A stretch of 64,000 nucleotides of DNA from Antedon mediterranea (Eukaryota; Echinodermata; Crinoidea; Comatulida; Antedonidae), in assembly GCF_964355755.1 (NCBI RefSeq), contig NC_092676.1, positions 21,744,288 to 21,808,287 on the forward strand. Direction: 5' to 3'. The first letter of the stretch is position 1. Each line of letters begins with the position of its first letter. This document shows positions 18,801 to 63,881 of this stretch, piece by piece. Below the pieces are notes generated by a model that ran no database searches, was not told the origin of the DNA, and saw nothing but the letters and a program-made list of their open reading frames with translations. The translations under genes and the position numbers were made by a program.

Positions 18801-21800
18801 TTCTGTAAATACATCCGCATAATAGTTGTTGCCTTTTATTTATTTCAATTTTGATCCATAGTGCTTCCACAAAATTTAAATTCAGTAATTCGTTACAGAT
18901 ACTGGCATTCAGCTCTTCCTTCGCAAAAATAACCACACCTCTACCACTTCTGCCAGAATCAAATTTTGTGTATCCCTTGATGCTTAACTCAACTTCCAAT
19001 ATGTCTGTACAAGTTTTGTTATTTACTTCAGTTATTGCAACCACATCAGGTTTCCTTTGATTTATAATATCACGTAACTCACCTATTTTATTTCTCAGGG
19101 CATCTGCGTTTGTGTAAAGAAATTTCAACGACTTCTCATGAAAATCAACAATATCATCGTTTCTTAAACTAGATTTCTTCTGCTTTAATCCTTCTATAAA
19201 AGTTTTAAATTTTTTCTTGTCCTCTGAACATTTTTTTTTTCTTATAAATTTTTGTTTCACTTTTCTTTCTAAATTAAAATAATTTTCTTCAAAACAAAAA
19301 GATTCTATATTTGAAAATTCTTTATGATGATGAACTAGGGCCTCGAAAACGATCAAACGCCAGTTCGCTATCCCGCTTCATAATTTTACCTCTTCTTATA
19401 ACAAGATCAATCTCGCCGTTATCTTTCCTTGATCTTAGTTCCTGTCTTAACTCATAGTTCATTTGCCTCTCTTTTTTTGATCTATCAGGATTAATATATA
19501 TGTTCTTTAGAAATGCGTGATCCGTGCTTCTAAGTTTTTTTGCATTTACCATCACTTCCCTTTTACTTTTCAGGCTATCCAGAGAAACTCTTGCCATTCT
19601 ACACCCGTCTTCCGTGTATTTCCCAAGCCTGATCACTTCTGTTATTTCAACTCCCTCTATCTCTAGACACTCATTGAATAATTTCTCAATAGCAACCCTG
19701 TCTTCCTTCAGTCTCTGCTGAGAACTTTGGTTATCAGATTCAGGTAGATTTTCGATCACAATATTTAATTTACGAGATTCTCTATCTCTATATTCTTCAA
19801 TGCCTTCCTGAACACTCTCTTTAATTTTCCCATCCATTAGATCGTAGCTCTCTTTTAATTCTATCAAATTATTTCTTGTGTCGACCTGGATTTTTTCAAT
19901 GACTTCAATGTTTTTATTGGTTAGTGATGCTCTAAGCGCCTGATCTTTTTGCGTTTTTTCCACAATATTTAATCTCGCATTCATATTTTCCTGCAATTCA
20001 TTTATCTCCGCAATTTTCTTCAACAAAGGTAACTGTACAAGGCATGTATCACATGACCATAAAAAATTCTTTATTTCGCTGTCGGAGAGGAGAGCATACA
20101 TTTTATTTGAGAGTTTTGAACATTTCAGGCAGAAACACCTCTTACAAATGTCACAATTTACGCCCTTATCCTTTTCGCCTATGATGGTTTTACAGATAGC
20201 ACAAGCTCCCTCAACTGACTGTGGAGTTGCTTCCTGTTCAGGTTGGCTAGGCCTAGGCCTAGCATCTGCAGGCCTAAATCTAGGTTCCAGTTCCATATCC
20301 TTTCTATCCCTTGCCTTCCCTCTAGTAGTAGGCCTACCTTCAGCCATGGTTGTTAAGTTCAAGGAACACTAGGCCTAGCCCCTACACCCTGCTTCCAGGA
20401 CTCTATGCTCCTCTGTATGGATACTGTAGGCTTCACATGGGTCCAGTTGACTTACCCCGACTTAGCAAACACGCTTCCAGAATATCGAAAAATATATCCT
20501 TTTTGATACAAATTTCTTGGTACTAGTACTTATTATCAATTAATATATCATATCATCCACTTTGAAGAACAATTTAAATCCCGGTTTCAAAGATTTTAGC
20601 AGATTTAATTCATGAGGTTCAGAGCAAAATAAAACTACATGTTGCATTATCGAATAGCGCCACCACTGTTGTCAAATTGATTAATTTAATTTCTTCTATT
20701 TCATCCGGTTCATATGTAGAAATTCAATTTGACATCAGAATTCAATTTGAGATATAACAGGAAATTAGAGAAACCCCCCCCCCCCCCCCATAAAAGAGAC
20801 ACTGCTATTAAGGAGACATCATGCATGCGGTTCTACAGGTACTGTAATTGAAAATATACTCCAATATGGGTATTAGTTCAGCCTTAGAAGTGCCCATAAT
20901 TAAATTGATAAATACTACAAAATGGAACAAACCATTTTATAAAGGGGTATTTATTGGGGGTTATCTATATATAAATTTACGTAAGGGCAAAATGCGGTAA
21001 ATCGCGCCTTACTTCTAGAATTTTTACTCGATGGTATATAAAGTTGCTTCGTACTTTCGGTACTGATTTTAACCACCTGATGTAACCCTGTTTACTAATT
21101 AAATTAAGTTAGATAATTAGTTATTGACGATTAAAACAAATTTAGGTTCAACGATTTGCCCCAAATAGGGGTGTTTTCCGATCGTGGTATACACTGTCTG
21201 ATGGATGTCCATCTTGAAAAATACCCGCCACAAAAATGCGAGGAGGCTTCGCATTTTCCTATCTCCTCCTACGATAATTGTTTTTAATAGCTGAAAACCT
21301 GTTGAACAGCTAGAGTACAGCATCATAATGTTGAAGACAGGCCGATTTTCTTTAAAAAATACTATTTTGATAGATATAATATACGATTATACAAATGTAT
21401 TGATTTGCGATGAATGGAACATCCCAATCTCTCAGTCTGCCAGAGTTTGGTTTAACACAAGTAGGTAAATTTATGAGCCCTTGGTTTAACACATACGGTA
21501 GGTAAATATATGGGCCCTTTGAGAATAAACTTGCAATACTTTGAAAATACTGTAAATACCTGTTAACTATTTTTGGTCCTCATTTAAATCGAACATTTCT
21601 TACTGTGAATGGGTGTGAATGTTCGTACTGTTAGATGTAATATAAAAATATATACAAATAAACTTTATGCCTGAGATTGTGGATAGGCTCTACTATTAGA
21701 TATATAAACACATTATTATATACAAATAAACTTTATACTGACAGTTCCTTCTCAACGTTTGTATTAATTAATAATTACCAATAATATAAACGTCGTAGTG

Positions 21801-23908
21801 GTGTATCGTGACATGTTTCAATCGATTATGACAGTGACAGTTTTAACAAAGTATTAAATCGCAAATGTTTTACTGTATTTAGAGGTATATTATTTATAGG
21901 CCTATAAAACATGAAAAAAATATTTCGTTACCGAGTGGATAAAGAATTATATTTAAAAATTGTTCCTCTTTGTACCTATCCGCTTTCCCATCCCTCAACC
22001 CTAATGTTACATACAAAACACAAATTGGGTTTCTTTAAATGAGTCCAAATCAAAAATTTGGACTCATTTTGTGATAAGTTTCTTTCGGAAGTAATTCCCA
22101 GGATGCTAATTTTAGTTGACTACATAAATCATCGTGTCTATTTATTCGTTTCTGTAAACGACAATGTATTATAGTCCTACGGTACGTACATTTGAAATCG
22201 CCAGTTTTGTTACGCTGAAATTACTGTGTATTCGAGAACCATCTGTGGACACGACCTAGATGGTACGCGAGCGAAGCGAGCGTACCATCTAGTTACAACA
22301 ATTTTGAGAAGTAATGCTTAGCTTTGAGAAAATAAAAAAAAATATTACCATGGTAAATTTTTCTTTGGGAGCGAATCGTGTTTAATTTAATCGTTTTATC
22401 AAAGAAGCAAATTGATTTTTAAGAATTTTTAAGAATATGCCTATGAGGGTAGGCGTTTACACAAAGTTACATCAATAACAATATGGACACTTTAAACATT
22501 CAACACTTTAGGATTAATTTGAATTACAGCAAATTATTTTTTCCTGTATTTTTATAGCGTGATATAACATTGGATAGCTTCAGGCTAATATTACTGCATT
22601 TTTAAACTGTTGATTGACATGTCCGTCGATTGACTGACAATGTAGATAAAACGTGTTGCCCAAGGACACAGTTAAGTGACTAGAATGGGAGTCAAATGAA
22701 GACCTAGTTCACAGCTGAGATCACCTCCTTTTCTGCGTTAGTTAGTTATTCATTCATTTCTGATTGACATTGATCATTTTTTTGATTGATGTTTATGTTT
22801 TTGTTAGGTTAAGTGCTTTTTCAAATAATACATTTATTTTTACTCATTTCAAAATACATTGAGAAGGAGAAAAACTTATATTACTAATTGCAGAAAAAAA
22901 GAAGTGAGAGTAAATGATAATTTTTTAGATGAAGGAAAAATTATTCTATTGCATTTACTGCAGTAATTTCTTTTTTTTTACTGTGTGTAATGTATTAGTT
23001 TAACACAACTGTAAACATGATTACCTCCCCCCCCCCCACACCACACCCAAAAGCTTGCTAAATAGTTATGTAAACAAGTTTAAAAAGTAGAAAAATAATA
23101 TTAAATAGAATTAAATGGAGACAGCCACTATACTAGAATAGGTAATTACTGCAGTAACTTACAGTAAACTCATGTTAACTATAATTATATATTTTTATTT
23201 CTAATTACAGCTTCAGTAATGATGCATCCAAAGTCTACGAATCTTACAAACTCACAAAAAGCGAGTACAAATGTGTCAGGCGTGAACGAGAGGCCTAGAC
23301 CTACTGGAACGTCATCTTGTTCGAGTAACAGTGTCTCGGGATATCCAAAAGAAACTTTAAACCCGCCTCCTAGCCCTGTCACAGAACGCTCACACTTTCC
23401 TGTTGTGTATTATAACCAGCCAAGTCCCAAAACTCAACTAAAATCTTCTTATAAGTAAGTAGTGAATATGTATTTGTTTTGTAACAATTTTACCACCTCC
23501 AACCAAATGATTATATTACAGTACATTACAGTTCTTTTACAATGAACAGCTTAAAAAAATATGTATTGGTTATTTTTGTCGTCATATTTTAATAGTTAAT
23601 GTTTTTGTATTTACTTTTTCAGACATTACAAAGTACGAAATATTCCACCGCCTCCGACACCGTGCAGTAGTGACATTTGTAACGATAGCGAGACGAGTAC
23701 AAACATACCAAAAAAGCGTCGTAGAGGAGGCCGATATTACAAATCTGTAGAGGTAAAATACGATCTTTCGGATCCGTTTCCGCCACCTCCAACGCCTCAG
23801 AGCTGCTTATCAGACAATCAAGAAAGTTGCCCGCCCTCACCGTCGACGGAAAGGAGCTTTTTCGATTTGTATCCTCCTCCGCCGTCACCGGCAACCGATT
23901 CAACTTAA
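6866..23908 (+). CDS. LRP6: LRP5/6 Wnt co-receptor, 3' 18 coding exons (5' end outside window)
   Basis: Single-pass co-receptor for Wnt with Frizzled; its phosphorylated tail recruits Axin. Exons: 6866-7061, 7445-7701, 8207-8347, 8592-8884, 9133-9359, 9835-10019, 10778-10981, 11503-11625, 12044-12243, 12690-12883, 13288-13481, 13792-13989, 14145-14270, 14670-14792, 15351-15578, 15959-16195, 23211-23454, 23623-23908. All have GT/AG borders and compatible phases, giving 1217 residues. Order: rest of propeller 2 with YWTD repeats; EGF2 plus propeller 3; EGF3; propeller 4; EGF4; three LDLR class A modules ending in SDE motifs; a transmembrane helix ([20 protein letters not shown]); a tail with all five PPPSP-type motifs ([51 protein letters not shown]). 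Human LRP6 has 1613 residues; the missing N-terminal part lies upstream. It cannot be split into LRP5 versus LRP6 because invertebrates usually have one gene. The donor at 16196 has an in-phase alternative at 16181. Confidence 0.95.
9602..9746. mobile_element. MITE family A copy 1 (LRP5/6 intron)
   Basis: Short palindromic element with ends AAGCTTGGTTCCCACTAG and GGGAACCAAGC. Related copies lie at 12259-12445 and 62479-62654, with a decayed one near 31033-31155. The left flank reads TTAA, which fits a TTAA-target (piggyBac- or Kolobok-like) MITE. The right flank is degraded. Confidence 0.65.
12259..12445. mobile_element. MITE family A copy 2 (LRP5/6 intron)
   Basis: Same ends as the other family A copies (GTGGTTCCCACTAGAACG and GCTAGTGGGAACCAAGC), flanked by TTAA on both sides (12255-12258 and 12446-12449). 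It starts only about 15 bp after the splice donor of the exon ending at 12243. Confidence 0.75.
13551..13703. mobile_element. MITE family B copy 1 (LRP5/6 intron)
   Basis: Palindromic element with ends AAGATCTGTCTACGCTATCA and, inverted, TTTGATAGTGTAGACAGAAC. Inside is a further conserved inverted pair around GTGATGTACCCA and ACCATATTTGGGCAC. Copies occur at 15662-15801, 36851-36982 and, truncated, about 44880-44978. Flanks are TAA-rich, suggesting a TTAA or TAA target. Confidence 0.7.
14870..15310 (+). repeat. 20-bp minisatellite in LRP5/6 intron
   Basis: About 22 tandem copies of a 20-bp unit, consensus TGGAGTTTTCAGAATTCTCT, with substitutions such as CAGAAC or CACAAT. It fills most of the 558-bp intron between the exon of the first LDLR class A module and the exon of the next two. 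The open frames it creates (F, S and L rich) are by-products of the repeat, not protein. Confidence 0.9.
15662..15801. mobile_element. MITE family B copy 2 (LRP5/6 intron)
   Basis: Ends AAGCTCTGTTTACACTATCA and TTTTGATAGTGTAGACATAG, with the internal GATGTGCCCAAATATGGTAG block shared with the other copies. It lies in the intron just before the transmembrane exon. Confidence 0.75.
16312..19356 (-). CDS. LINE ORF2: AP-type endonuclease and reverse transcriptase
   Basis: About 1014 residues. It makes the target nick and copies LINE RNA into the genome. N-terminal half: an apurinic-type endonuclease with [10 protein letters not shown], the [10 protein letters not shown] motif and SDHVTI near its end. 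Centre: a reverse transcriptase with [54 protein letters not shown] and the catalytic FADD box. C-terminal part: the [13 protein letters not shown] and [10 protein letters not shown] blocks usual in CR1/Jockey-group ORF2. The frame is open, with all catalytic motifs present. It opens with a non-ATG codon (TTG) and the frame is open further upstream into ORF1, so its start is uncertain; translation by frameshift or reinitiation after ORF1 is likely. The motif set fits the CR1 clade best. Confidence 0.92.
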   Translation of the reverse strand: MIVFEALVHHHKEFSNIESFCFEENYFNLERKVKQKFIRKKKCSEDKKKFKTFIEGLKQKKSSLRNDDIVDFHEKSLKFLYTNADALRNKIGELRDIINQRKPDVVAITEVNNKTCTDILEVELSIKGYTKFDSGRSGRGVVIFAKEELNASICNELLNLNFVEALWIKIEINKRQQLLCGCIYRSPNSIDENNQALLSAINKASELNGISDFIMLGDFNFPEIDWISWSTNKNETHKSNRFIECLRDNFLCQCIQQPTRFRDGQTPNILDLVITMDETKSEMEIGPPLGKSDHVTILFSYDCVTKIQEKMEYKLNFNKGDYIKMKELITEVDYQFENTNVEEACEALNKSIRNAVQICIPKSNIKKENKPIWMTGDVQRKIKMKHNAWKKFTRSRQQKDYDSYKKARNIVTGEKRAAKIALERKICNEVKTNPKSFWKYVREKTKTTQSIGLVKDGKGNMADDNQHKAEIFNAFFTSVFTNEDLESLPEVTPRVDVDDHLESIEVTKEEVLTCLQQMNSNKSAGPDDVHPRVLKELKEIVATPLTSIYNKSLSTGQLPECWKCANVVPIFKKGDKTEVGNYRPVSLTSVVCKLLESIVRDKIIQFLNDRNLIIKAQHGFRKGRSCVTQLLEVMEEWTKLLDAGENFDAVYLDFSKAFDSIPHQRLITKLEAYGIKGNLLRWIHQFLTGRKQRVRVAAAFSEWSTVKSGVPQGSVLGPLLFIIFINDLPDAVKSKVWMFADDTKMFNVVYENRNDTVQNDLKALSDWSKRWQLKFNINKCKVIHYGNSNPQMQFTMPTEEGDEDLPNANTEKDLGVTFDQSLKFSLHTNEAVNKANRLIGLVRRSFAYMDKDMFLPLYKSIIRPHLEYASCIWYPLLKGDLDKLERVQRRATKIVKKLRDKSYDQRLKELGLPTLNYRRRRADIIQVFKIIKGLDDIEAETFFDFREDSRTRGHQFKLRKPRARLKIRSHSFSCRIVNTWNNLYHTTVQAENINAFKDQLNKDRAMGDKFCYQF
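19322..20362 (-). CDS. LINE ORF1: PHD-like zinc finger plus coiled-coil/RRM-type RNA-binding protein
   Basis: 346 residues with an ATG start. An arginine/proline-rich N-terminus is followed by a C4HC3-like zinc finger at about residues 53-107 ([27 protein letters not shown]), typical of PHD-bearing ORF1 proteins in CR1-group LINEs. Next comes a coiled-coil stretch of about 70 residues, then an RRM-like segment with [14 protein letters not shown] and a basic C-terminus. It probably binds LINE RNA as a multimer; that role comes from the family. The gene overlaps ORF2 by at least 35 nt. The genome-wide AGGCCTA motif occurs inside this ORF near 20240-20280, where it encodes a proline/arginine-rich stretch. 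Confidence 0.85.
   Translation of the reverse strand: MNLTTMAEGRPTTRGKARDRKDMELEPRFRPADARPRPSQPEQEATPQSVEGACAICKTIIGEKDKGVNCDICKRCFCLKCSKLSNKMYALLSDSEIKNFLWSCDTCLVQLPLLKKIAEINELQENMNARLNIVEKTQKDQALRASLTNKNIEVIEKIQVDTRNNLIELKESYDLMDGKIKESVQEGIEEYRDRESRKLNIVIENLPESDNQSSQQRLKEDRVAIEKLFNECLEIEGVEITEVIRLGKYTEDGCRMARVSLDSLKSKREVMVNAKKLRSTDHAFLKNIYINPDRSKKERQMNYELRQELRSRKDNGEIDLVIRRGKIMKRDSELAFDRFRGPSSSS
20964..22292 (+). mobile_element. Helitron-like non-autonomous element, copy 1
   Basis: A 1329-bp element starting TCTATATATAAATTTACG and ending CTAG. It is inserted between A (20963) and T (22293), as Helitrons do. The last 37 nt form a hairpin with perfect 13-nt arms (CTAGATGGTACGC and its complement) around the loop GAGCGAAGCGA. 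An internal perfect hairpin (AATGAGTCCAAAT arms) lies at about 22039-22070. It shares most of its sequence with the copies at 52649-54104 and 62889-63881. It has no transposase-like protein. A roughly 70-residue minus-strand frame near its 5' end is preserved only because the DNA is repeated. Confidence 0.85.
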
Positions 23909-26560
23909 GAGGTGTTGTTGTTGAGAGAGAATTATTTTGTAATATTATAATTAAGAAAAGAAGATATTTTTGTATAAAAGGATTGGGTCTAAGGGTTGTT
24001 GTATATTATGTATAGATACTATGTGAATATTGTACAGTTATTTAGTCGTTTTATATTGATAATGATAATTAAAATAGTAAAAGGAATCAATTTTGTTTTA
24101 AAAGAAGAGCCGGGCTAAGATAAAATTGTCACAATCAAAAGTATATGCTACTTAAAGTGATATTACAAATATTGATAACAAAGCATAAAATAAATGGTAC
24201 ACAAGTTGCAATATAACGCTGTTTTAAATAAAATATATAGTGTAACTGCCATCAAGATTTTAATCTTAATTCTATACAATAAATTGACATTTATTTTCTG
24301 AATATTACCAAAAAGACAAACTACAAAATACAAGTAAACATTTTTAAATTTATATTTGATACGGATTCAAGACTTTGTATGTATGTATTCACTCAAATAT
24401 TTACTATTAAAAAAAATCACAGTACAGTATTAATATTTATAAAATACAGTATATGGTAACAATTCCAATTTTATATCAATTTTATATAACAAATGAATTT
24501 AACAATTTGTCTTGTGTCTTTTTCAAAAGGAACTATTTCAACAAAACAAAGCAGTCTTTAGGTCAAAGGTTATTATAGTCATTATATAAATGAATAGATA
24601 GAAGCTTTATACAGCATTTTGGTACTGTATAACGAATTCCAATCCTATTGTGTTAAAATAATGAAAGATTTAAGAATGCGGAAGACTGAGTTTAATTTAA
24701 ACTCACCGTGAGAGAGTGGGTTTAGTTTTAAAGTTGAACTATAAATTGATCAGTTAATTTATGCGTTTTGTATGCATTTATTGAAATATTTATTTTATGA
24801 TCGTTTTTTAAATCATACACTTTTAGTTATGGTTCTGAGATGTTGTATTTTAGATAACAAAATGTATTCACAGGTATGACGATAATTATAACAGTTATTA
24901 CATAATTTATTTCTTCCAAAACAAAGTTCCAAGCATGATTTTAAAATTTCTGTATTTATTGGTACAGTAGTAGAATTGTATTTATTTATTGTATTTAGCG
25001 TTGAACATATCTACCACTAGTAAATGTTTATATTATAAGTGCCTCAAACCATAGAGATTATTATAAATATCTCTATGCTCAAACTAAAATGTTGAATTGA
25101 TGAAATTTTTTACAGTGTTTTTCATCTGTACGAGATTATGTATTTAGATTTTATGAATAATAATTCTTGGTCTTCCTAGTTAAATCTAACAACATAATTA
25201 TGTCCAAGTATAAATGCCTAAAAGATTCAAATAAATTTGTATCTTCCTTCATTTTGTAACATTAATATAAAATTCTATTGAATACTTGTTTATATTATTT
25301 TAAATCTATATATTATGACATAATAAAATTTAAACCTTTTTATAATTTTCTTTGTCCGGTGAATAAAAATGCATTGGTCATGCAATTTTTAAAATACTCT
25401 GTTTTTAAAGTTTCATTAAGGCTAGTGGTTTTACTGGAAATAATGGGGTCGCTAAATGATAACAAAATCAATGATAACAAAATCAAAGATTGCCACATGG
25501 ATCTTCTTCTGTCCGCAACATTTTTATTCCTTGATATCTCAGGCAGGAATTATAATTCTTAAGATAAACTATAGGACATTATAAGAGCATGAACATGGAT
25601 AATAGGTTGTATCAACGGTTTCAGCAGGCCAACTTGTTGTATTGTGTAATTGTCTGGACTTAGCCCTGGATTCGAATCCCATCAAATGGCAAGAAATCAA
25701 AATTGTTTCTCAATCCTGAGCTGTATTGCATCATAATTAGTCATCTACCTCACCACACATCTCAATGTTGAACAAGAGATACGTCTTATCAAACACACAT
25801 CATTACAGTTGGTCTTTATTTCACAACTCAAGTTTACAATACACACGCAATAAATACATCTACAAAATATTGCTAATCGTATTACAATGAAGTACAAATA
25901 ATGTAAATCGTCATTCCGTTACTGGAAATATGGTCAACTCAGACAACTAGATTTCTTCACTCCACTTCTAATACCTTGGACAGCTCTGTGATATAGGTCA
26001 CATGTTCAATACAACTGCATCATGAGGTATAATTATAAGTTTTGTCATATCACTTGTTACACTGTATTTAGGAATTTGACTATGGCAAAATACAAACTAT
26101 ATTTTCCTAGCACTCACGAGAATTTCTTAGGTCTATAATATTGTTCTTGTTTGGTCATTGTGTACAATTGTCTGAGGACAAGCTTCCCAATGTACTTAAC
26201 TACGGTAAACTATAGAATCTTAGAAAATATAACATGTAAAAATAATTTCATAAAATTAATATAATTCATGATCAAATCAATGTTTTAAATTATTACTCTA
26301 ATAATCTGAAACATAATATATCTACAATGGATATTTATTGATTTCAGTACTACAACACTAACATTTTACTTTACAGTACATTATTCTGTGAATAAAACAA
26401 TATATACATATTCAAGCATTGCACCATAAATAGCTCCCTCAATTAATATTGGTAACGGCATATTGGGATAAAGCTTTTCAGTAGCATCACCCTATAACAA
26501 AGGCAAATAATTACACAATGCACTAACAGCTGATGTGAAATAGCATGACAGATATCGCAA
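23909..26560. other. LRP5/6 3' UTR and intergenic DNA
   Basis: AT-rich sequence after the LRP5/6 stop codon. Candidate polyadenylation hexamers (AATAAA) occur near 24190, 24230, 24280 and 25215, so the 3' UTR may be a few hundred to about 1300 nt. No coding sequence could be supported. LRP5/6 and RIC8 converge on this interval. Confidence 0.45.
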
Positions 26561-26562
26561 CT

Positions 26563-26965
26563 TGATAGAAGTCACAATTTGACACGAATGACATTATGAA
26601 TGAAATCAGTGACAGAAGTCACAATTATGATAGAAGTCACACATATGACACAAGTCATAATATGAATGAAATCGCATGACAGAAAAGTTACAATTTGACA
26701 GAAATCACAATATGATACAGAAGTCACATGAAAAAGGTCACAACATGACAGAGGTCACAACATGACAGAAGTCACAATTTGACACGAATGACATTATGAA
26801 TGAAATCAGTGACAGAAGTCACAATTATGATAGAAGTCACACATATGACACAAGTCATAATATGAATGAAATCGCAGTGACATAAGTCACAAACTGACAG
26901 AAGTCACATTAAAAGTCACAACATGACATAAGTCACAATATGACAACATTTACAATTTGACAAGA
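26563..26965 (+). repeat. Tandem repeat with TGACAGAAGTCACA half-palindromes
   Basis: Many short units of the form TGACA-GAAGTCACA-AT. Superimposed is a larger duplication: the roughly 120-bp segment near 26565-26690 recurs almost unchanged near 26760-26880, about 195 bp further on. TGAC/GTCA inverted halves are frequent. No coding potential. Confidence 0.85.
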
Positions 26966-27102
26966 AACATGAAAACCAACAATTTGTTCAGCATGCACTA
27001 AACAATAAAGTAGCAATTATGAAAAGCTAGAGAGTTCCTTTTCTATAAAATAAATGTACCAACAATCTTAGATCCATACCAAATTACAAATGCAATAACA
27101 GC

Positions 27103-27476
27103 TCGAGTGAGTGGCCGAGCGGTTAAGACAGTGGAACCGTAATTACGTAGCCATAACATCGGCAAGGGTTCGAGGCTCACTCGCTCCATGGTTCTGGTGG
27201 TAGAACGAGTCTTCTCGGATAAGGACTACAAACCATAGGTCCAGTGTACACATAGCTCATGCGCACTTTAAAGAACCTAGTACATCTTTCGAGACGAGTA
27301 GGGGGTACCCCGGTGTACTAGTCCACACAAACACAGCCACTGTCACACACAGCCACTGTGCAAATTGGGACTGGACCGTGTTAGAGGTGTTTACCACCTG
27401 TTGGTCCAGATCCCTCACTAACTGAGTTAGTGAGAAGTCGAATAAATAAAAAAAAATAAAAATAAAAAAATAAAAA
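27103..27476 (+). mobile_element. tRNA-derived SINE, copy 1
   Basis: The head resembles a Leu/Ser-type tRNA, with A box TGGCCGAGCGG and B box GGTTCGAGGC, the internal RNA polymerase III promoter. About 200 bp of tRNA-unrelated body follow, including TTTAAAGAACCTAGTACATC and an AGACGAGTAGGGGGTACC block, and then an A-rich tail (AATAAATAAAAA). A second copy lies inverted at 51664-52017. The head does not fold as an intact tRNA, so this is not a tRNA gene. Confidence 0.85.
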
Positions 27477-27796
27477 CAAACTGTATCAGATAACAGTGGC
27501 CATATTTACCATTCATACCCATTCTAAAGGTAAACACCCTTAGAACATGCTTAGAATTTAAAAAAAGAATATTTAAAATATTTATTTAAGCAAATTTAAA
27601 TTGTGAAAATACAACTACTGATTGTTGACACAAATTTTGTCGTTCTTCCTTCAATCCAATAGACCAGTAAAATGGTTGGAATGGTTATCTGATGTCTGTC
27701 TAACATTGCATGCATGGAACACCACATTTTGTTACAAATACAGTCAAAGTTGATTTCACTAGCATTTTTATGTTAACAGAAAATGTTAATAGCAGT

Positions 27797-33564: not shown

Positions 33565-33635
33565 GGAAGATGATGGTTACAGAGTTTAAATTGTTGATTT
33601 GAAAACTACGACCGACTTATCAAAAGAAAACTAAA

Positions 33636-51850: not shown

Positions 51851-51882
<32 letters not shown>

Positions 51883-52017: not shown

Positions 52018-52648
52018 TTTTATTCCACTTAATTTTTTTCTAATTTTGGAATAACCTTTTTTATTTTATAGGTGTATGACAACAGTGGATACTATTATAG
52101 GAACAACTTAGATCGAAGTTGATAAAAGGTAAATTTAATATGGAAACTAATTAGTTACACTTCTCATTGTGAGTAAAAATCCATAACAAGATAATAATGA
52201 TAACAATACACTTTATTTCAGCACTATAAAGCTTATTATATAATACACAAGACAATTACAATATAACAACATATCATTAAAATACAGGACACTGATTAAA
52301 ATATTACACAGTTTCAATGGAGCCTCGATTTTTTTTTCATTGTTAGCCATTTTCCATGGGTGGATATAGGCCTCTCCGTCAATCCTCTATTAGTCTCTTC
52401 TAAGCCAGTTGTTTCCATTCCTCCCTTGCCTCTAAACTCTCTACTTATCTCGCTACCGTCTGTTTTGTCTACCTTCTCCGTTTCTTCCATGTGGGTTAGG
52501 TGTACAGTCTATGGCAAACTCTTCTTTTCTCCTGAATATGTGTCGTGCCTAAATCCACTTTTTTATTTCTTTGATTATTCCGTTTATATTGTTCTTTCTC
52601 TGTCACGGTTGGTAACTCTGTTGCGTCTCTAGTCCCTAATAGCTCTAA
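52018..52648. other. Intergenic DNA, no gene seen
   Basis: Low-complexity and AT-rich; an isolated acceptor-like tract ends at about 52071. Nothing could be assigned with confidence. Confidence 0.3.
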
Positions 52649-54104
52649 TCTATATATAAATTTACGTAAGGGCAAAATTCGATAAATCGCAGTTTATTTC
52701 TAGAATTTTTACTCGATGGTATATAAAGTTGGTTCGTACTTTCGGTACTGATTTTAACCATCTGATGTAACCATGTTTACTAATTAAATTGAGTTAGATA
52801 ATTAGTTATTGACAATTAAAACGAATTTAGGTTCAACGATTTGCCCCAAATAGGGTGTTTCGTGGTCGTGGTATACACTGTCTAATGGATGTCTAACTTG
52901 AAAAATACCCGCAGACAATAATGCAAGGATGCTTCGCATTTTCCTATCTCCTCCTACGATAATTGTTTTTAATAGCTGAAAACCGGTTGAACAGCTCGAG
53001 TACAGCATCATAATGTTGAAGACAGGCCGATTTTCTTTAAAAAATACTATTTTGATAGATTTAATATACGTTTATACAAATGTTTTGATCTGCGATAAAT
53101 GGAACATTCCAATCTCTGTTCCACAAGTGTCTATTCCCTCAGGCGTCGTAAAGACAAGTACTGTACAGTCATAACAGAAATTCGATACATTTTTTTCCAA
53201 TCTGTGGAATCCTTTTTTTTTAACGCATAATGAGCTAGCCTTTCCAGTCGCCGTCTATTATGTACAATCAACTTTATTATTGCAGCTAAACCACCACCAA
53301 CATCACCACCCTCCCCTCACTGGCATGAGTAGCGTTGTAAAGTCAGTAGAGGACAGGCCTACAGTACGAATGATCAGTACATGCCCTAAACGCAGAACAA
53401 CTTTGGTGGTTAGGAAACAACTTAATTTTCAATACAAGTTGGGTAGCATAATTGGCTCTATGAAACACTTGACCATTAGGCCTACTAATTAAGTTGAGTT
53501 AGATAATTATTTATTGACGATTAAAGCGAATTTACGATTTGCCGCGATTAGAGGTGTTTAATATATTACTGACAGTTCCTTCTGAACGTTTGTAATCATG
53601 TAACTTCAAAAAAATATAAACGTCGTATTAGAGTGATGTATCGTTACATGTACTGTACTATTTCAATCGACTATGACGGTGACAGTTTCAACAAAGTATT
53701 AAATCGCAATGTTTTACTGTGTTTACTGGTATATTATTTGTAAAACATGAAAACAATTCATATTTCGTTACTAAATCGATAAAGAATATATTTAAAAATT
53801 GTTCGTCTTTGCATCCATCCTCTTCCCCATCCCTCAACCCAAATGTTACATACAAAACACAAATTCAGTTTGTTTCTTATTTTGTGACAAACTTCTTTTT
53901 CGGAAGTAATTCCCGGGGTGCTAATTTTAGTTGAGTACATAAATCACCGTGTCTATTTATTCGTTCCTGTAAACAACATGTATTATTGTCCTGCATGTGC
54001 ATTTGAAGTCGCCAGTTTTTTAAACGCTGAAATTACTATGTATTCGAGAACCATCTGTGGGCACGACCTAGATGGTACGCGAGCGAAGCGAGCGTACCAT
54101 CTAG
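52649..54104 (+). mobile_element. Helitron-like non-autonomous element, copy 2
   Basis: Same 5' end (TCTATATATAAATTTACG), 3' hairpin (13-nt arms, loop GAGCGAAGCGA) and CTAG terminus as copy 1. It is preceded by A (52648) and followed by T (54105). At 1456 bp it is longer than copy 1. About 350 bp of unrelated sequence (about 53120-53490) precede a second, partial copy of the element's own TTGAGTTAGATAATTA block (53494-53565). The added part contains an acceptor-like tract and a 70-codon open frame (53280-53492) of unknown nature, so it may be captured or recombined sequence. The T after its CTAG is the first base of the next element. Confidence 0.85.
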
Positions 54105-55437
54105 TCTATATATAAATTATGGTTAATTCTGACATAGGCGAGCACAATGCAAAAACTTCTCTACAAATCTCCGCCTTGGATACCTACCTTATCTATCCGA
54201 GATGTACCGCGAAACGTAGATTTGATAACATTAGTGTGCACGCCGACGCTATTGTTCCATATTTATATCTTAGGAAGATATTATAAAGAGTTTTTTAACA
54301 ACATTTATGATTTCAACATTGGATTTTCCTCTCAATTTCAATTCTTCCCGGTCAAAGTAATTTCCGGGTTTAAGATAAGTTCACCTTAGTTTCAAATATT
54401 TTCTCTCTTTTATACACAAGGGAGCAGTTAAAATAATAGATTTGACCCTAAAGGTGACTGGAAACAGGCACTTTCCATCAATCAATACAGTGTCCCTTTG
54501 GAAGACGAAAAAAAAATTGGCCATTAATCATAGCCATTTCAGTTTTTTGTTTATTTTAAAACATACCACACGTGTGTGAAGGTGCAGTAGTTAAATAATA
54601 GGAATTATACTGCAAATTAATAAAGATCAAATTAAATATACGCCATAAAGAATCAGAATATATTGTGGGGAATAGTATTATAAAATTACATAGGGAGATT
54701 TGATAAGACATTTTTCGAGTGAAATCCCGATAGCTGAGTTTTATTGAGTAAGCTTGCAGGAATAACTGTAGGCTATCTTCCTGTGTCCCGTTAGGACCGA
54801 GATGTCTGCCCATGTTGCAAGCCGTAATGTCTTCTTTCTTGGGCCCACTCTGTCACGGCAGTTAGTTTCAAAAGATGATTAAATTAAATAATGTATTAAT
54901 AATTATTAGGATGGTATTCATTTGAATAAACGCCTCTCCAATAAAACATCACTTTGAATAATAACCCCCCCCCCCCCCCCCCACACACACAACCCAACTA
55001 TCTAATAAACGTCCATTCACATATTTATAATAACACAATTATACTATTTGTAGTAGAATTCACCGCACTGTTATCTGCAATTTACCAAGCATTTGTTATT
55101 CTTTTTTACCACTTTTCATATCTATGAGACGATTTCATTTGATTATAAATGTTACCATATTATTAGAACTAAAAAATTTAACATATATCCCTCGAATAAG
55201 CACCTCCCTCAAATGACCTCCGCCTTTCCAAAGGGCCCTACCAAACAATAAAAACTATACTTTAAAATGTTATTAATCATCTAAAACACTGTGAAACAAA
55301 GTAGTTTAGTTTTACGAATGTCAAGCATTTTCAATAATGGTAACCGACAGAAAATGTATAAGGAGAACATTATGATTCCGAGAACCATCGTCTACACTTC
55401 CTAGAGGGGGAGCGAGCGAAGCGAGCTCACCCTCTAG
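54105..55437 (+). mobile_element. Helitron-like element of a second subfamily
   Basis: Starts TCTATATATAAATTATGG, sharing only the first 14 bases with the other copies. It ends CTAG followed by T (55438). Its final 37 nt form the same hairpin layout as the other family: 13-nt arms (CTAGAGGGGGAGC against GCTCACCCTCTAG, one mismatch) around the identical 11-nt loop GAGCGAAGCGA. The interior is unrelated to copies 1-3 except for GAGAACCATC just before the hairpin. A poly(C)/CA microsatellite lies inside near 54966-54990. Confidence 0.8.
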
Positions 55438-58400
55438 TAAGGACAATTTATACAGACGATCGGTTACGGTAAGCGGAAATCAGCATAGATATTCCCAATA
55501 GAGGCTGTATCCTTAATGGGGTGTTGCTCAACCACCCGTCATCTCCACATTTTTTATAAATGGTCATAAGAAATAACATGTATTCTATATTTTTGGTTTT
55601 TTCGCTTACCGTTACCGCTTACCCTGTGTAAATTGGTCTTTACTCACGTAGTTTAGTTATTGTTTTCATGTGGTTATCTATGTCAATATAAGACATTATG
55701 CACTGGTATAGGTTGAATTGAAACGTAACACTCACATTAATAACCACTACTTAACATAACTAAACATTAAAGTAATAACCCAATAACCACTAACATAATA
55801 ATAATTTTAACTGTTAATAATTTATTAAATAAACAACAAACACCTTGATATTTAATTTTAACTATGCTATTAATAATAAAATCATAAATTCATTTTTTTA
55901 CAGATTTTGAAGATGGCAAGTAATGGCGTACGCTTTGACGTCATGGAAATAGTGCCTGACAAACTTCTACAATCCATTTATTGTACTCAAGTAATGTTTT
56001 TTGTCAACATTCTGTCTTTTTACGATATTGAAAATTTAAATCAAATTTGAATACAGATTTTCAATCAGAAATAATGTATTTTTACCCTTTTTTTCTGCTA
56101 CAGTATTCGTTTAATGTATAACATAACACGTGTCAGTTTCAAGGATAAGACATGTTTAATGGTTTAAAATTATTAATGGCTTTCCTATTATAGTACAACA
56201 TAAAACAAGAAAACCAATTTATATCAAAGTAGAAATTATAATAACATTATTAACTAGAGGCAATTTACTTCTTCCAAACAGTGGATGCTTGTCACAGCTA
56301 CCGATGTATTCTGATAATTATGCTCATTATTAAGTCATTTATAATACATATCTTTTGAATGATTAATAAACACAAACCGAAGATATTAATATTATTATTC
56401 ATTATTGTGTTCGTTATGAATGATTCCTGTATGCCTGCACCTTTAATTGATTGTTTTATTAGTGTAGTTAGTTATAAAGTATTTATGGATATCATATATG
56501 ATCTGTTATTTATTAATTTTAAATCTGAAAAATATCGTCAATTAAATGATTAATAATTACTAGGCCTAAATAATGTAAAATAAAATCTTATTTTTCAACA
56601 AATAAAGTATAAATGATCAAATATATTGGTATTCTTGATTCAATTGATGGAATAGACCAAAAAATAAATAATTATGAACACAGCTATAACACAATAGCAT
56701 TGAGTTTTGTAACAAATTTGATGGATGAGAACAAAATCAGTCTAGGGCAAGATTCGTCAAACTCGACTATTGAGTATTTTTACGTTAGCAATTACGTCAT
56801 ACATTATGATCATAATGGCCTCTATAAGGTTTTAATTTATGCCATAATTTATAGTAGGCCTATGTCCTTCATTTACGATCTGTGTCTTAAAAGCAGAAGA
56901 AAAGAAGAAGAAAAGAATATTAATTCGGCCGTACTTTTGAACATGCAAGCAAAATCGCTGGATGCACCACCCACATGCTTCTTGAAAACGCAACTAAGGC
57001 ATACTGTAGCTTGTATTAAACACCTGGATATAGAATTAAATTGTCGTCCAATCAGAATACAGACCGTTGTTACGTCAGGTATTCCCATTTTTTTATTTGA
57101 AAAACAAATACGTATCAATCAATGCACAAAAACTCATACATCACTCAATGATCGACTTTAACAATACTGTATTACCTGTTTGGTGGATAGTTGGAATAAA
57201 TAAAGGTATTAATGGCAAAACTAAGCAATCAACTGTAAAAAATTTAATAATATTATCTATCACCTAGAATGTCCATAATATGAAACACAGGGCTAATAGT
57301 TGGATAGAGATTACGCGCGATGCCAGCCGACACAGCTTCTAGTTTGATCCCTCTACTTCGCAATACGTATAGGCTTAGTAGGCCTAAGTCTTAACGTAAC
57401 GTGAAATAATAACGTTGTGTAATCTGATTAGAATTAAACTGAAAACTGAATTATAAATGACGTCATTGATACGCTGCTTTCAAAGAAGATTAATCGGCCG
57501 TACTACTATTGGTTTGCAAGGTAAATCATTGGAATTAATAACCATGGAGGAAAGTTTCCGTTTCAAGTATCTGACGATGACGCAGCTTATCCGGTTATAA
57601 CGCCATTGTCCAGTTATTACTGTACGGTGAGGCGAGTGATCTCAAAGGTCATAAGGTAAGTCATACGAAGACCTACTAGCCCACTGTTAATGTAAATTAT
57701 AATCATTTTCTTTGTAAAGATAGGATGTGTAGTTGGCTATAATAGTATAGTTTGGTTAAGAACTGATAACTATTTGAAGTGTAACGACATAATTTTCTTA
57801 TTATAATTCGTGTCTTAATTAGGCCTAGACGCGTTGGAACTTTTTGTCGGTACTATGAAACAAAAAAGTCATCATTACAGTTTTTTCATGTTTCCGGTTC
57901 CCGTGTTGTCCTGTTTTTTTCAGCTTTATGTGCCACCTCTCACAAGCCTTTATTTTGTTAGTTTGCTTCTCTTAGTTAATTCAAATTATTGTAATTTAGG
58001 CCTATATTATAAACTTGGAGAGAATTAGGCCTAAATGTGTTTTTTTATTTTTTTAAAAATTAATATTCATATAACACAATCTTATTCATAACGAGAACTT
58101 GTTCACAAACATGACCTTATTCCTAAATGAATTCGTTCAAAAATGATTTTTTTAAATAAACTTATATCATCAATTACAATTTCATTTCAATCAATGAACA
58201 CGACAGTAAATTTCATTACAAAACATTTTGAATAAATCGGACCTACTTCTATGCTCGTAAATGTATGTTGAAACAACTAAGAGAAAATAAAATATATAAC
58301 TATTTTCTTAGGATTCGTACAATATAGGTGATCAAATAAGTGTTACCTACCGTACTATCACAAAAAACAATAAAATATAAATAATCTGATCATTGATTTG

Positions 58401-59705
58401 CTGATTTAGGCCTACTTAATTAGAAAATGTTACAAACACATTTAAAAAGATAAAATGCAAAAGAGATCGTTCAATTACTAAACTGTCTGTGTTCAATGTC
58501 TTTGTATACACCAACACGAACTTGACTCAAAATATAGATCCATACGGATTTAAAAATAAAATATACACATACACACGGATTTAAAAATTACAAATAAGAC
58601 TACTGGGCTACGTAAAAGTTGACCGTACAGTAATATAAATTAATTCATCAAGCTATGGATTTAATAGATTTATTGGAAAAAAAGTGAAGGTCAATTTTAA
58701 TACCTATCCACGAAAGCATAAATACAGATAACAAAAATCATCGCTATTGTTGAGTTGATACTTCTAAATCTTTTATTCCAATCACCAATTATTTACCATT
58801 GGAATAAACTCAATTGGATTGGATTGTTATGTGAAATAAATTCGGTTAGTATTAAAACTAGTTCGGTTGTCAGTGAGTTTTTTATTTTATCTTATGCATC
58901 ATATTATAAGAAGGTTTTTGATAAGCTTACATCATTTGACGTTTCGGAACTGTACACAAGGAATACTTTTTACACTTTAACTTTAGTTTTAGTAGGCTAA
59001 ATGAGCCTGAGTGTGTTCAGTTTCAAGCAAGTCCTATACGAAAGGCAGGCTATCAACAAAAGCCAAAGGCAAATTTTAGGTTAGTACTTTTAATTTGTTT
59101 ATAGAGGGCCTAATTTTGTTAGAAAATAAAAGTAGGCCTAGAAAATTAGGTAGTCTAAGTGGTCAAGTTCACAATAACCGACTATATACAGATCGATTCA
59201 ATATTAATTGTTCGTACACTTCTTCATTATCATGGTTTATGTTCAATAGAGTCTTAATATAGATAACGTATTAACATTAACGAAATAAAATCATGTTTTT
59301 ATGAAATAATGCATACAAATAGGATCCGTACGAACAGACCATTCATACACTAGGATTAATGAAGTGAAAAACATCAACATACAACAATTAAAAAATAATC
59401 TTATAAACGAGATTAGCGTAGGCGAATATATGAAAATAATCAATTATAAAGATAAGGAATCGTTATTGCTATGCAGCATTACTTAGTTTTAAATCGCAAA
59501 ATTTATTTTTTTATCAGGTTTTTTTAATAGAGAAGATTGTAATTACTTATTTTGTCAGAAACTCATTTTTAGATTGGCGTGGCTTAAAAATTTGCTATTA
59601 CACTTTGATGGCTTGTTTTATTAATTGACAGTAAACGTGCACGAACTCGTGTGTATTTTTAACGGTACGTTTATATAATGTTGAAACATTTATTCTTTTC
59701 TCCAG
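55438..59705. other. Intergenic DNA upstream of the GH18 gene
   Basis: AT-rich with no supportable coding exon. An acceptor-like tract followed by a short frame (about 55912-56050) and a 182-codon frame (56613-57161) match nothing I recognise. A possible untranslated first exon of the GH18 gene could end at a GTAAGT donor at about 57656, since the first coding exon has a clear acceptor at its 5' side. Confidence 0.35.
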
Positions 59706-59720
59706 ACTTGAGCAACTAAA

Positions 59721-62202
59721 ATGCATCTTAAGATTCTCATAATATTTACAGCGTTGATGTTTTCAAATGTTTCCATGATTGAAGAATCACGAGGTAAACT
59801 AGAGTAATTATTTTGTTGTTTTTGTAATTGAAGAACTTCGTATTTGTTCCATAATCTATACGACTTTTCCGTTCTTAAACATTTTGCAGCAGTCATGAGA
59901 TGGATTCTAACTGACTATCCATAGTCAGTATAGAAACATGTCTAGGTGTATGGAATACTTTTAAAACATGTTACTATGATATTTGTTTGTTTAATCCTTT
60001 AAGTACGGTAATGTATGATTTTAACAGTATATTTCAACTTTATAGTGTATTATTTTATATCATTCTCCTGATGTAAAATGTACCGTTTACTTAATGTTCT
60101 GTTTATTCACCATTCTTAAACAAAAAAACAAGAATAGACTATTTCTAATTCAGTCTTGCTATGTTGCTTTCTAAGATTTTTTAAACATTATTCATCTTTT
60201 TAACATTATGGTAATTCTAATCTATAGTTTCAAATGACTTCATCTCCATGTGCTACGTAACATCATGGGCACAATACCGAGCAGGAATCGGAGCTTTTAC
60301 TATTGACAACATCGACCCAGAACTCTGTACTCATGTGATCTATGCCTTTGCAACTGTTGACGATAACTTGCACATAGCCGCAGCAGAGTGGAACGACATG
60401 TCCACAACATGGTCTGTGGGAAACTACGAGAAGCTTCAACAGCTGAAAGACATAAACCCACATCTGCGTACCATATTGAGTGTTGGGGGCTACGCTCTGG
60501 GGACAAAGAAGTTCACACAGCTGTCTTCAAATCAAGAACTACGCGCAGATTTCATCCAGCATTCTGTGACGTTTCTAAGAGATAATAGATTTGATGGTCT
60601 CCAAGTTGATTGGACATATCCAACATTTGGAGACAGTCCTCCTGAAGATCGGCAGCGATATACTTTGTTATTGGAGGTATGTGAGGTTTTTATGTATTAT
60701 CTCCAGTTTTGTTCCGTTGGTGTCTTTCCACTTTGAACATGACATTTAAACTGAAACTAAAACTCAAAATATCAAGAGAAACTATACCGTACTTTACAAT
60801 AGTAATACAATATGTTTTTGTATTTTGAAGAGGTAAGTTAATCTTTTGGATTAATTTATAACGTGTTGCAAATAATTATATTATTTGTTTCTTCTCTTCC
60901 GCCACTTAACGTTTTAAAGTACTAAGCATACAAAAGATCTCCATTCACAAAAAAAAAAAAAATAACTCCAATTAATTGTTGTTTATTATATTATTATATT
61001 TGACAAAATTCAGGTCAACGAGCCTCGAAATATCTAATACTTACCAATTCATTTACCAATAATTTAAATTTTAAAAGGTTGAAATTCTTTGCAGTGTAAA
61101 TTCATGACTATAGTATACGAATCAATTACAGTTTTTCCTGTAATCAGTGGTAGTAAGATAAGTTGGTTAACTCTGGCATAACTGTATCGCTTATCCACCA
61201 GTAAATTGATATACATGTAAATCATGTAACGTCATGAATATAATAATTATTAATTACTGCTTTCCGGGAATGAAAAATAGGAACACGGTTTATTCAACTC
61301 TGACGTAATCGTTCTATGCTTTATAATGTACTGAGTTTTTTGACCGTTTATGGTTTGTAGCCATCATTTACTGGTAGGCTTACTAACGATGTATTAAAGA
61401 ATATTACTATTTTATTATATCAAGCTTATTGACCGTTAAGAAGATTGAATTAGTAAGTTTGTATTGTTATCCATGTCAACAAGTTAAGTCATAGACCTTC
61501 TAGTCGGTACTTGATTAAAGTGTAAATAATTTTAAAAGGACAGTTTGTCCAATCACATTTCATTTTTTATATTGTATGATAAAGTATATATAATTATCAT
61601 AAGTAGACATCACGATTGCCGCCACTAATAGAATAATGCAGATTGGTTTTAACACAAGCTAAAAAACTGTAATCTAGGCCCTATGAAATTTATAAAATAA
61701 CACAACATAGTTAATTTTGATTGATACGAAATTAGGGGAAAAAAGAAACATTACAATTATTTTTATTTGTAAAATGTGAAATTTCTCATTTTGTGATTGG
61801 TCATCGAATGCACGAAAAGATGATTTAACCAGTGATCCTTAAACAAAATGTGATAACAATAATGGAAAAGTGGGGCACTGTGAGGCAGTGGGGTACACCA
61901 AGAAACTGTATATTCCTCCTCACTCAGGGGGGACCGAGAAAAAGATGGGTACTTTGTTTAACAAGTACAGGGAAGGTAATTCAGAAAATACACTTTGGTT
62001 TCGAAATTTACTGAAAAAGTTCAGTTTAAGAAAATCGGATTATACATCATTTAACAATATTTACTACCGGTACTTTGCAGGAACTGGAAATAGCGTTCCG
62101 CAAGGAGTCTGAGTTACCAGGAAGACGTCGCCTTCTTCTCATCGCTGCTGTAACCGGAGAAAAGTACTACACGAAGGCTTATGAAATCGATAAGGTTGCC
62201 AG
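59721..62202 (+). CDS. Secreted GH18 chitinase-like protein, 5' three coding exons, catalytic residues lost
   Basis: Exons 59721-59793 (its acceptor ends at 59705), 60228-60676 and 62081-62202, with compatible phases, give the first 214 residues. The rest lies beyond the window. Exon 1 encodes an ATG and a hydrophobic signal peptide (HLKILIIFTALMFSNVS). Then come the GH18 barrel strands MCYVTSWAQYR, ELCTHVIYAFA, RTILSVGGY (SxGG motif) and RFDGLQVDWTYP, followed by RRRLLLIAAVTGEKYYTKAYE. Active GH18 enzymes need DxxDxDxE. Here the positions are D147, Q150, D152 and T154, so the proton-donor glutamate and one aspartate are gone. I infer a chitin- or glycan-binding lectin-like protein, similar in principle to vertebrate CHI3L1 but inactivated by different substitutions. 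The intron after 62202 contains a MITE and a Helitron-like element. Confidence 0.88.
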
Positions 62203-62478
62203 GTAGTAAAAATACTCTTTAAAAAAAAATTCATTATTTTCAGGTTTATTATTACTTTGACTATCAAGTGGCTAATTGTGAAGCTTTAAAGTACGCGATC
62301 GTGTTGTTGAATATAGTTGAGTCACAATGTTTGTTTTGTAATGTTTTTCCCCTAAACGCAATGACATACACGCAACACAATTGATTTTACCAATAACAAC
62401 AGACCATCAAAACCTGTAAATTGGATTCGTTACACGTGCGTACGTACGTCCTTGTGCTAGCGTCGCAACGGCTACTAA

Positions 62479-62654
62479 AGCTTGGTTCCCACTAGAACGC
62501 AAGGACGTAAACGCAACGCAAGCGTTTTAACCAATGACAAGCAAAGTTATAGACAGTTAGCAATATCACAAGCGAATAAGCCATCGCTTGTGATTGGTCA
62601 ATTCACTTGCGTTGCGTTAAGTCCTTGCGTTGCGTTGCTAGTGGGAACCAAACA
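62479..62654. mobile_element. MITE family A copy 3 (GH18 gene intron)
   Basis: The best-preserved copy: AGCTTGGTTCCCACTAGAAC at the left and TTGCTAGTGGGAACCAAACA at the right. CTAA on the left and TTAA on the right fit a TTAA target with one mutation. Internal AACGCAACGCAAG and CTTGCGTTGCGTT arms extend the palindrome. Confidence 0.75.
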
Positions 62655-62888
62655 TTAAAGACGTACTTAAGACGCGTCGAAGCTTAAAAAACCGACATTT
62701 ATTTAAAAAGATATTAAATATTTGCAAAGGATTGATTATAATAACAAATCTAAACACATTTTGTTAATGCAGAAAAGGTTGCTGGATATTAAGTTGCGTG
62801 GTTATCTGTTTCCCATTTGAAATATATACGGTTTTTTAATAGTTAATGTGTTTCTTTTTTGTCATGGGAATTATTAGTGTAGGATGAA

Positions 62889-63881
62889 TCTATATATAAA
62901 TTTACGTAAGGGCAAAATTCGGTAAATCGCGCGTTATTTCTAGAATGTTTACTCGATGGTATATAAAATTGGTTCGTACTTTCGGTACTGATTTTAACCA
63001 CCTTATGTAACCCTGTTTACTAATTAAATTGAGTTCGATAGTTAGTTATTGACGATTAAAACGAATTTAGGTTCAACGATTTGCCCCAAATAGGGGTGTT
63101 TTCCGATCGTGGTATACACTGTCTAATGGATGTCAATTTGAAAAATACCCGCACACAATAATACGAGGACACTTCGCATTTTCCTATCTCCTCCTACGAT
63201 AATTGTTTTTAATAGCTGAAAATCGGTTGAACAGTTCGAGTACATCATCATAATGTTGAAGACAGGCCGATTTTCTTTAAAAAAATGCTATTTTGATACA
63301 TTTAATATACGTTTTTACAAATGTATTGATTTGTGATGAATGGAACATTCCAAATTATGTGGTTTAACCATAGAGGTATAGGCTTACCTCCATGGTTTAA
63401 CACAAGTAGGTAGATTTATGGGCCCTTGGGGAACGTAAATGTTTCACTAGACTGTATGTAGTGGTATATTATGTATAGGCCTATAAAACATAAAAAAATA
63501 TATTTCGTTACTGAGTGGATAAGAATATATTTAAAAATGTTTCGTCTTTGTACCTGTCTTCTTCCCCATCCCTCAACTCTTAATGTTACATACAAAACAC
63601 AAATTGGGTTTGTTTAAATGAGTCCAAATAAAAAGAAATGACTCATTTTGTGATTTTGTGACAAGTTTCTCTCTCGGAAGTAATTCCCAGGGTGCTAATT
63701 TTGGTTGACTACATAAATCATTGTGTATATTTATTCGTTTCTGTAAACGACAATGTATTATAGTCCTGCAGTACGTACATTTGAAATCTCCAGTTTTTTC
63801 TCGCTGGAATTACTGTGTATTCGAGAACCATCTGTGGGCACGACCTAGATGGTACGCGAGCGAAACGAGCGTACCATCTAG
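62889..63881 (+). mobile_element. Helitron-like non-autonomous element, copy 3
   Basis: 993 bp, between A (62888) and T (63882). Same 5' end and 3' hairpin as copies 1 and 2, with one loop change (GAGCGAAACGA). It lacks about 330 bp of the interior present in copy 1, and its internal GAGTCC hairpin is degraded on one side. It lies in an intron of the GH18 gene or just downstream of the last exon seen. Confidence 0.85.

Follow-up and report, generated by a model that had tools for sequence, protein, structure and literature searches.

A probable Helitron lineage with its terminator hairpin at the very 3' end in the crinoid Antedon mediterranea

The window analyzed here is a 64,000-nucleotide stretch of the Antedon mediterranea genome (contig NC_092676.1, positions 21,744,288 to 21,808,287 of the forward strand), and this study was concerned with four elements in it, w1 (20964..22292), w2 (52649..54104), w3 (54105..55437) and w4 (62889..63881), all on the plus strand. 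They are probably non-autonomous members of one Helitron lineage, which by sequence comparison is one whose terminator hairpin moved to the very end of the element. The Rep-PIF1 proteins of two sets of longer genomic copies, the G5 family and the G2/G3-like copies, would serve them, with transposition terminated at the hairpin. A probability of roughly 0.78 is assigned jointly to this kinship and to the mechanism set out below.

The original prediction had placed the four elements at these positions, with TCTATATATAAATT at the 5' end and CTAG at the 3' end of each, and this was verified. The left terminal sequence TCTATATATAAATT occupies 20964..20977 (plus strand) in w1 and starts also at 52649, 54105 and 62889, giving four exact copies in the window; with up to two mismatches the 14-mer was found 8 times against a shuffled mean of 4.09, a count reached by 5 of 100 shuffles and not beyond chance in an AT-rich window. 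The predicted A^T insertion was borne out in part: T follows all four elements and A precedes w1, w2 and w4, but the base before w3 is the G of the CTAG of w2. The interiors had been described as unrelated, which is true of w3 only. Elements w1, w2 and w4 form one family (92-93% identity across the first ~465 nt and 88-89% across the last 230-430 nt), of which w4 is a short member, while w3 resembles them only in its first 14 nt and its last 64-69 nt (77-80% identity). At the junction of w2 and w3 (54104/54105) CTAG is followed head-to-tail by TCTATATATA, the intact 5' end of w3. Because w2 and w3 come from different families, this junction represents an insertion at a left end and not a concatemer.

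As predicted, a 37-nt hairpin with 13-nt arms closes all four elements, its foot being the terminal CTAG. The hairpin of w1, CTAGATGGTACGC-GAGCGAAGCGA-GCGTACCATCTAG (22256..22292, plus strand as for the other three), is identical in its letters to that of w2 (54068..54104). The hairpin of w3, CTAGAGGGGGAGC-GAGCGAAGCGA-GCTCACCCTCTAG (55401..55437), has one G·A mismatch, so that 12 of 13 pairs form, and that of w4 (63845..63881) has the loop GAGCGAAACGA, with one loop mismatch. DNA fold z scores of the three distinct hairpins ranged from -6.5 to -4.1 (-6.45 for w1). The loop GAGCGAAGCGA, which had been taken as constant, is thus exact in three of the four elements, and its three exact occurrences in the window compare with 0.00 in 100 shuffles. 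Around GAA inside the loop (GA-GCGAAGC-GA), GC pairs with GC in two of the three window hairpin folds, not in that of w4. A lone GCGAGCGAAGCGAGC core was seen at another locus (L023) in unrelated sequence; it was rejected as a related end, having neither CTAG nor pairing arms.

The arms differ between the main family and w3 at four positions, and compensation on the other arm, claimed for three of these, was confirmed; by a simple estimate the chance of three 3'-arm changes at partner positions with the right letter is 0.0018. Across six hairpins 95.6% of the cells pair and 7 cells are changed on both sides (G3 was left out of this count because MAFFT misplaced its arm gap). For pairing, for double-changed cells and for the covariation score, none of 500 shuffles was as high, and slid structures reached 48.7% pairing at most. 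The loop letters and the flanking GC are invariant in seven aligned hairpins bar the one change of w4, and loop variants exist among individual copies with intact arms. Most of the changes that separate families pair, but only about three double changes underlie the count, and mid-arm positions are unpaired or bulged in further families. Arms that vary without pairing, which had been named as evidence against the prediction, were seen in individual copies, as expected from decay after insertion.

The genome searched consisted of 354 Mb in 18 contigs. The 24-mer of the right end of the w1 family gave 895 exact matches and the 25-mer of the w1-type left end, which starts with TCTATATATAAATT, gave 1841; the backward-read control gave none in either case. 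The same loop with arm position 2 other than T was found at 358 places. Among 100 of these that were listed, 80 carry the w3-type right arm over the part shown, and 31 of the non-T places are also non-G at arm position 5, including those with AGGGTGCGC/GCGAACCCT and AGGGAGAGC/GCTCACCCT arms. One w3-type hairpin (L182, C10:10541813-10542013) has its arms apparently swapped and its loop orientation kept. In collections of viral DNA (viral_contigs) and of bacterial and archaeal DNA (genome_contigs) the terminal hairpin was found 0 and 0 times; the only animal or plant genome covered was that of the window.

The original prediction proposed a common Rep/Helicase and looked for an autonomous copy with the same ends. 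Three putative ones, G5, G2 and G3, carry the terminal hairpin, which supports that proposal. Among 87 matches to PF14214 across the genome, G5 (C1:29677649-29686831) has a 1439-aa Rep-PIF1 open frame, P0001, with domains PF14214 and PF05970; its residues 85-1422 match Helraiser (PDB 7lcc) at E=1.1e-243. The 5' end of G5 is TCTATATTATAATTAACATACGTAAGGGC, with TACGTAAGGGCAA common to G5 and w1, and its 3' end reads CTAGATGGTACGC-GAGCGAAGCGA-GCGTGCCATCTAG, then T; the last 66 nt of w1 are 92% identical to it. The loci G2 and G3, with 99% identity between them over the parts compared, end in CTAGAGGGTCGC-GAGCGAAGCGA-GCGAACCCTCTAG, then T; where compared, the proteins of the G5 and G2/G3 families are 69% identical. 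G5, G2 and G3 all have the HUH motif (PHVH) and the KYIYKY tyrosines; Rep-PIF1 membership was judged on the whole protein for G5 and on the Rep part and Walker A only for G2 and G3. Element w3 matches G3 at 97.6% over its first 167 nt, where G3 has its proposed 5' end, and at 80% over its last 59 nt. By these matches w1, w2 and w4 belong with the G5 family and w3 belongs with the G2/G3 family. Differing tandem repeats with 61-, 195- and 333-nt periods fill the 5' parts of these two loci, G2 and G3 (L015, L017).

Two other classes of Rep-Hel gene were rejected as partners, class B (~3.1k-aa Rep-Hel-endonuclease) and class C (1.6k-aa), with no GAGCGAAGCGA in one locus of each (L009-L012). Rep-Hel genes whose open frames run to ~3,000-3,180 aa number more than 30 in the genome, and some of them, on C8 and C1 among others, form clusters on one strand, ~20-50 kb apart. 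This looks like recent activity. The sole such frame scanned (L009:819-9998) is Helentron-type, with Rep, PIF1, OTU, herpes-tegument-like and endonuclease domains.

The elements have the 5'-TC and 3'-CTRR ends and the A^T insertion of canonical Helitrons, but not the hairpin ~10-15 nt inside the 3' end. A third Rep-Hel family of the same genome (G1/G4/G6) is canonical in this respect. It has the same Rep type and the same 3' CTAG-T (ATAG-T in G6) but, unlike the G5/G3 lineage, a spaced hairpin: G1 ends in CCCGCCCTGGGGCGGG-TATCTTTG-CTAG-T, with 8 nt between the hairpin CCCGCC-CTGG-GGCGGG and CTAG, and in G4 the hairpin is partly lost. Where compared, G1 and G4 proteins are 35-39% identical to those of G5/G3. 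A canonical-family Rep-Hel frame (L001) has N-terminal peptide repeats, with a weak, sub-cut-off Pfam STPRs match and a PDB match to fibroin-modulator-binding protein. According to the papers cited, the hairpin-to-end distance in Helitrons is 10-12 nt (PMC5148889), 11 nt (PMC4778049) or 10-15 bp (PMC13286980). Helraiser/Helibat1 resembles the lineage described here in its TC...CTAG ends, A^T insertion, single Rep-PIF1 protein and 3' hairpin (PMC4778049, PMC5876387), and differs in that its 19-bp palindrome lies 11 nt inside the end (PMC4778049). The spacer is zero in the four window elements, in G5, G2 and G3 and, among 40 ordinary copies, in the 37 with the inner CTAG. The terminal position of the hairpin is thus atypical, as predicted, when set against G1 and published Helitrons.

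An ordinary Helitron with a subterminal hairpin might give the same picture if a chance inner CTAG, being self-complementary, lengthened the stem without any function. CTAG is palindromic and canonical Helitrons, including G1 and G4, also end in it, and the inner CTAG is missing in 3 of the 40 ordinary copies. However, it is present in each of the seven hairpins aligned, those of G5 and G3 among them, and in the other 37 ordinary copies, which were chosen regardless of it (all on C1, extended from the first 100 of the 895 right ends). In addition, the 8-15 nt spacer of the canonical family and of published Helitrons is absent. This explanation is unlikely.

In the mechanism proposed here, Rep would nick the plus strand at the A^T of the left end and the helicase would peel the strand off. 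The right end, once single-stranded, would fold, and its innermost GA-GCGAAGC-GA would form a compact cap that stops the helicase. Rep would then cut the 3' foot of the stem, after CTAG, and join the freed end to target DNA that is open at A^T and has an AATT 8-9 nt downstream. The oligonucleotide d(GCGAAGC) forms a DNA mini-hairpin of extraordinary stability, and stacking of tandem G·A pairs is favorable. Values of 88.5 C for CGCGAAGCG and of 76.5 C for a 2-bp hairpin have been published (PMC10527192). When hairpins were swapped in Helraiser, the loop mattered and the stem sequence did not (PMC4778049); by analogy, the loop may be the recognized part here and the stem mostly scaffold.

Alternatively, the palindrome could act as double-stranded DNA or as RNA, either as a site for a dimeric protein or as a terminator of the transposase transcript. 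Perfect palindromes bind dimers, and the hairpin of G5 lies downstream of the transposase frame. Against these points, the hairpin persists in short non-autonomous elements and stands precisely at the transposition boundary, and the 11-nt loop is asymmetric, strand-specific and constant while the arms differ between families. Such a role is improbable as the reason for the hairpin.

The boundaries of the insertions agree with hairpin-terminated transposition. T follows 847 of the 895 main-family right ends and A precedes 1609 of the 1841 left ends; among 100 listed of the 232 exceptions, counted by eye, 70 have T, 30 have G and none has C. A G before the left end is expected from a head-to-tail CTAG-TCTATA junction, and one array contains three such junctions (L183, C3:30549900-30552700), which are compatible with a circular intermediate. 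Empty sites were searched with the joined flanks of 20 of 23 insertions, leaving out a tandem one and two with repeated flanks, and 40 of 2703 candidates were scored; 18 flanks had no match among these and are uninformative. The joined flank of one insertion (45+45 nt) was found uninterrupted, at 100%, at 40 places, with A^T and nothing gained or lost. That of a second was found at one place, at 91-92% and equal length, inside another w1-family copy. Target duplications or boundaries beyond CTAG would have spoken against the prediction; neither was seen at the 40 empty places, and the 5' end of w3 directly follows w2.

The targets share a motif, T N6 AATT, which is seen in the host flanks after w1 (22293..22303, AATT at +8), w3 (55438..55448) and w4 (63882..63892), all on the plus strand. 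In 67 distinct non-tandem right flanks, position +9 is A in 64, and the best A column of 40 in 2000 within-flank shuffles never exceeded 42. AATT starts at +8 in 27 flanks and at +9 in 22 (49 of 67), and at any other of the first 40 offsets in at most 4. The 67 flanks remained from 95 rows, by way of 70, after repeated flanks and 3 head-to-tail flanks were removed. The profile left out L117 and L123 (true G), L118 (arm lost), L101 (CTAT, then A) and L089 (hairpin duplication), and at no stage did it include L026 and L031 (true G and A); T at +1 in 67 of 67 is therefore partly by construction, and 847 of 895 is the fair figure. A at +9 was found in 34 of 36 ordinary and 30 of 31 loop-inverted copies. 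AATT at +8/+9 was found in all six of w1, w3, w4, G5, G3 and G2, in three of four w3-type ends followed by G, and in none of the three canonical-family copies (G1/G4/G6). In the 40 empty copies of one insertion, the AATT-side sequence is part of the target. Helraiser targets are AT-rich within ~20 bp, most strongly on the 3'-end side (PMC4778049). This published preference is for AT-richness and not for a fixed A at +9 with AATT, and the nearly fixed +9 base seen here is sharper.

Right ends not followed by T numbered 48 of 895, and in 47 of these G follows CTAG. Examination of 42 gave 38 copies in which the 11-nt loop is inverted relative to the body, 3 with a true G and 1 with a true A. Thus, decay of the flank was rejected as the source of G after CTAG. 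T stands beyond the outer CTAG in 36 of the 38 inverted copies, the exceptions being L101 (CTAT-A) and L118 (arm lost). Another copy, L089, has a partial duplication inside the hairpin that fits strand switching. Descent of the inverted copies as one inherited subfamily was not supported. When 37 inverted and 37 ordinary copies were placed on a tree made from sequence outside the hairpin, the orientation label required 23 changes, where shuffling gave 24.7 on average (160 of 500 shuffles were as low), and starred branches force at least five of the changes; the tree left out L117, L123, L118, L128, L140 and L143 and includes the identical inverted copies L112-L114, which are one duplicated locus. 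The inverted copies are also no older than the ordinary ones, with a divergence that is no greater (p 0.57 and 0.98). In the w3-type family, which has mismatched arms, no loop inversion was found: the loop of L182, the one match of a loop-only search, is not inverted, and the four w3-type ends that precede a G (L178-L181) do not represent inversions. The difference between 38 of 895 and 0 of ~286 has p 3e-5, the second denominator being estimated as 80 of 100 listed copies (counted by eye) times 358.

Parvoviruses replicate by a rolling-hairpin cycle that yields flip and flop forms. A similar process could act here, with a 3'-OH at the foot of the hairpin priming copying and terminal resolution inverting the loop to give flip and flop copies. 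The 38 verified inverted copies, scattered over the tree and no older than the others, would suit it, and so would a w3-type end (L180, C6:14797728-14797928) whose flank after CTAG opens with a reverse-complement copy of ~8 nt from its body. That flank looks as if the 3' end was extended by snap-back copying, although chance may also account for it. Such a cycle predicts nearer half of the copies inverted, against the ~4% seen, and the absence of inversion found in the mismatched-arm family suits strand switching from arm to arm. The Rep is also of Helitron type, and circles are known for Helraiser (PMC4778049). Lastly, plastid hairpin loops invert recurrently without any transposon (PMC6824564). 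The plastid inversions show the same recurrent flip between inverted repeats, here nuclear and at many transposon ends, and because plastid hairpins flip alike, strand switching between the arms is suggested as the simplest cause of the inverted loops. A rolling-hairpin cycle is very unlikely.

At some places the hairpin itself is missing. Thirteen places read the subterminal sequence, the inner CTAG and T, with A at +9 in 12 and AATT at +8/+9 in 10; two of them (L167/L168) are one duplicated locus and L171 is a decayed hairpin. They were rejected as proof of cutting at that point because slippage between the two CTAG repeats gives the same product. These places could reflect occasional Rep cleavage at the inner CTAG or loss of the hairpin by deletion between the CTAG repeats.

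A wider reading can be offered tentatively, and it may well be wrong: that one code serves donor and target. Rep would cut A^T ahead of AATT, and the right end would be set by shape, as a capped stem with two CTAG feet, of which the outer would be the usual cutting point and the inner a rare one. On this view, hairpin formation in vivo would have left the inverted loops and the hairpin-less copies as its footprints. An AATT is present at +11 of the left end TCTATATATAAATT, and Rep might read this AATT and that of the target alike. A shared code, if true, would explain why the elements land at each other's left ends, as at the junction of w2 and w3 and at L174 (C7:1005537-1005707). At L174 a hairpin-less element ends 2 nt inside a w3-type left end, in the register where that left end matches the target motif with A at +9.

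A Helentron/Helitron2-type element or a MITE with terminal inverted repeats was also considered. Both give short non-autonomous families as well, and Helitron2 termini also have hairpins (PMC5148889). The likeness extends to the rolling-circle Rep-Hel and to the GAA triloops of Fusarium Helitron2 5' hairpins (PMC4067079, PMC5148889), but Helitron2 and Helentrons differ in their asymmetric terminal inverted repeats and their T-rich or TT targets (same papers). In the four window elements, comparison of the first 60 nt with 113 nt of 3' subterminal sequence showed no such repeats beyond chance, no endonuclease domain was found in P0001 of G5, and GAGCGAAGCGA is absent from the Helentron-type class B locus (L009/L010). 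Insertion is at A^T rather than TT, without duplication. This assignment has hardly any likelihood.

Several results weigh against a terminal hairpin that ends transposition as proposed. First, two of the five covariation measures are null on only 6 rows, with 10 of 15 pairs invariant and about three events: the pairs changed on both sides number 3, a count matched in 128 of 500 shuffles, and pair types in 350 of 500, neither being above the shuffles. Further families have an unpaired or bulged mid-arm position. Secondly, the capped-loop structure is borrowed from mini-hairpin chemistry, and the energy model gives nearly equal stability for ordinary (-14.0) and inverted (-13.6) loops. Third, the thirteen hairpin-less places suggest that the hairpin is perhaps not always included or needed, and among true non-T right ends of w1 type A is at +9 in only 2 of 4. 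Lastly, the proposed 5' end of G3 depends on the 167-nt match to w3 and is followed by a tandem-repeat region, and that of G2 was not reached.

A Helitron hairpin without a spacer, a +9 target base and loop inversion were not found described in the available literature, which did not cover Repbase or subscription journals. Recognition of the 3' end in Helitrons is poorly settled, and loose termination is thought to underlie gene capture. This genome sets canonical and terminal-hairpin ends side by side on related transposases, with ~900 exact copies of the latter, and thus the roles of hairpin distance, loop and CTAG are readable and testable in one genome. The nearly fixed +9 base would represent an unusually strict target choice for a Helitron, and the inverted loops would record hairpin formation in living cells.

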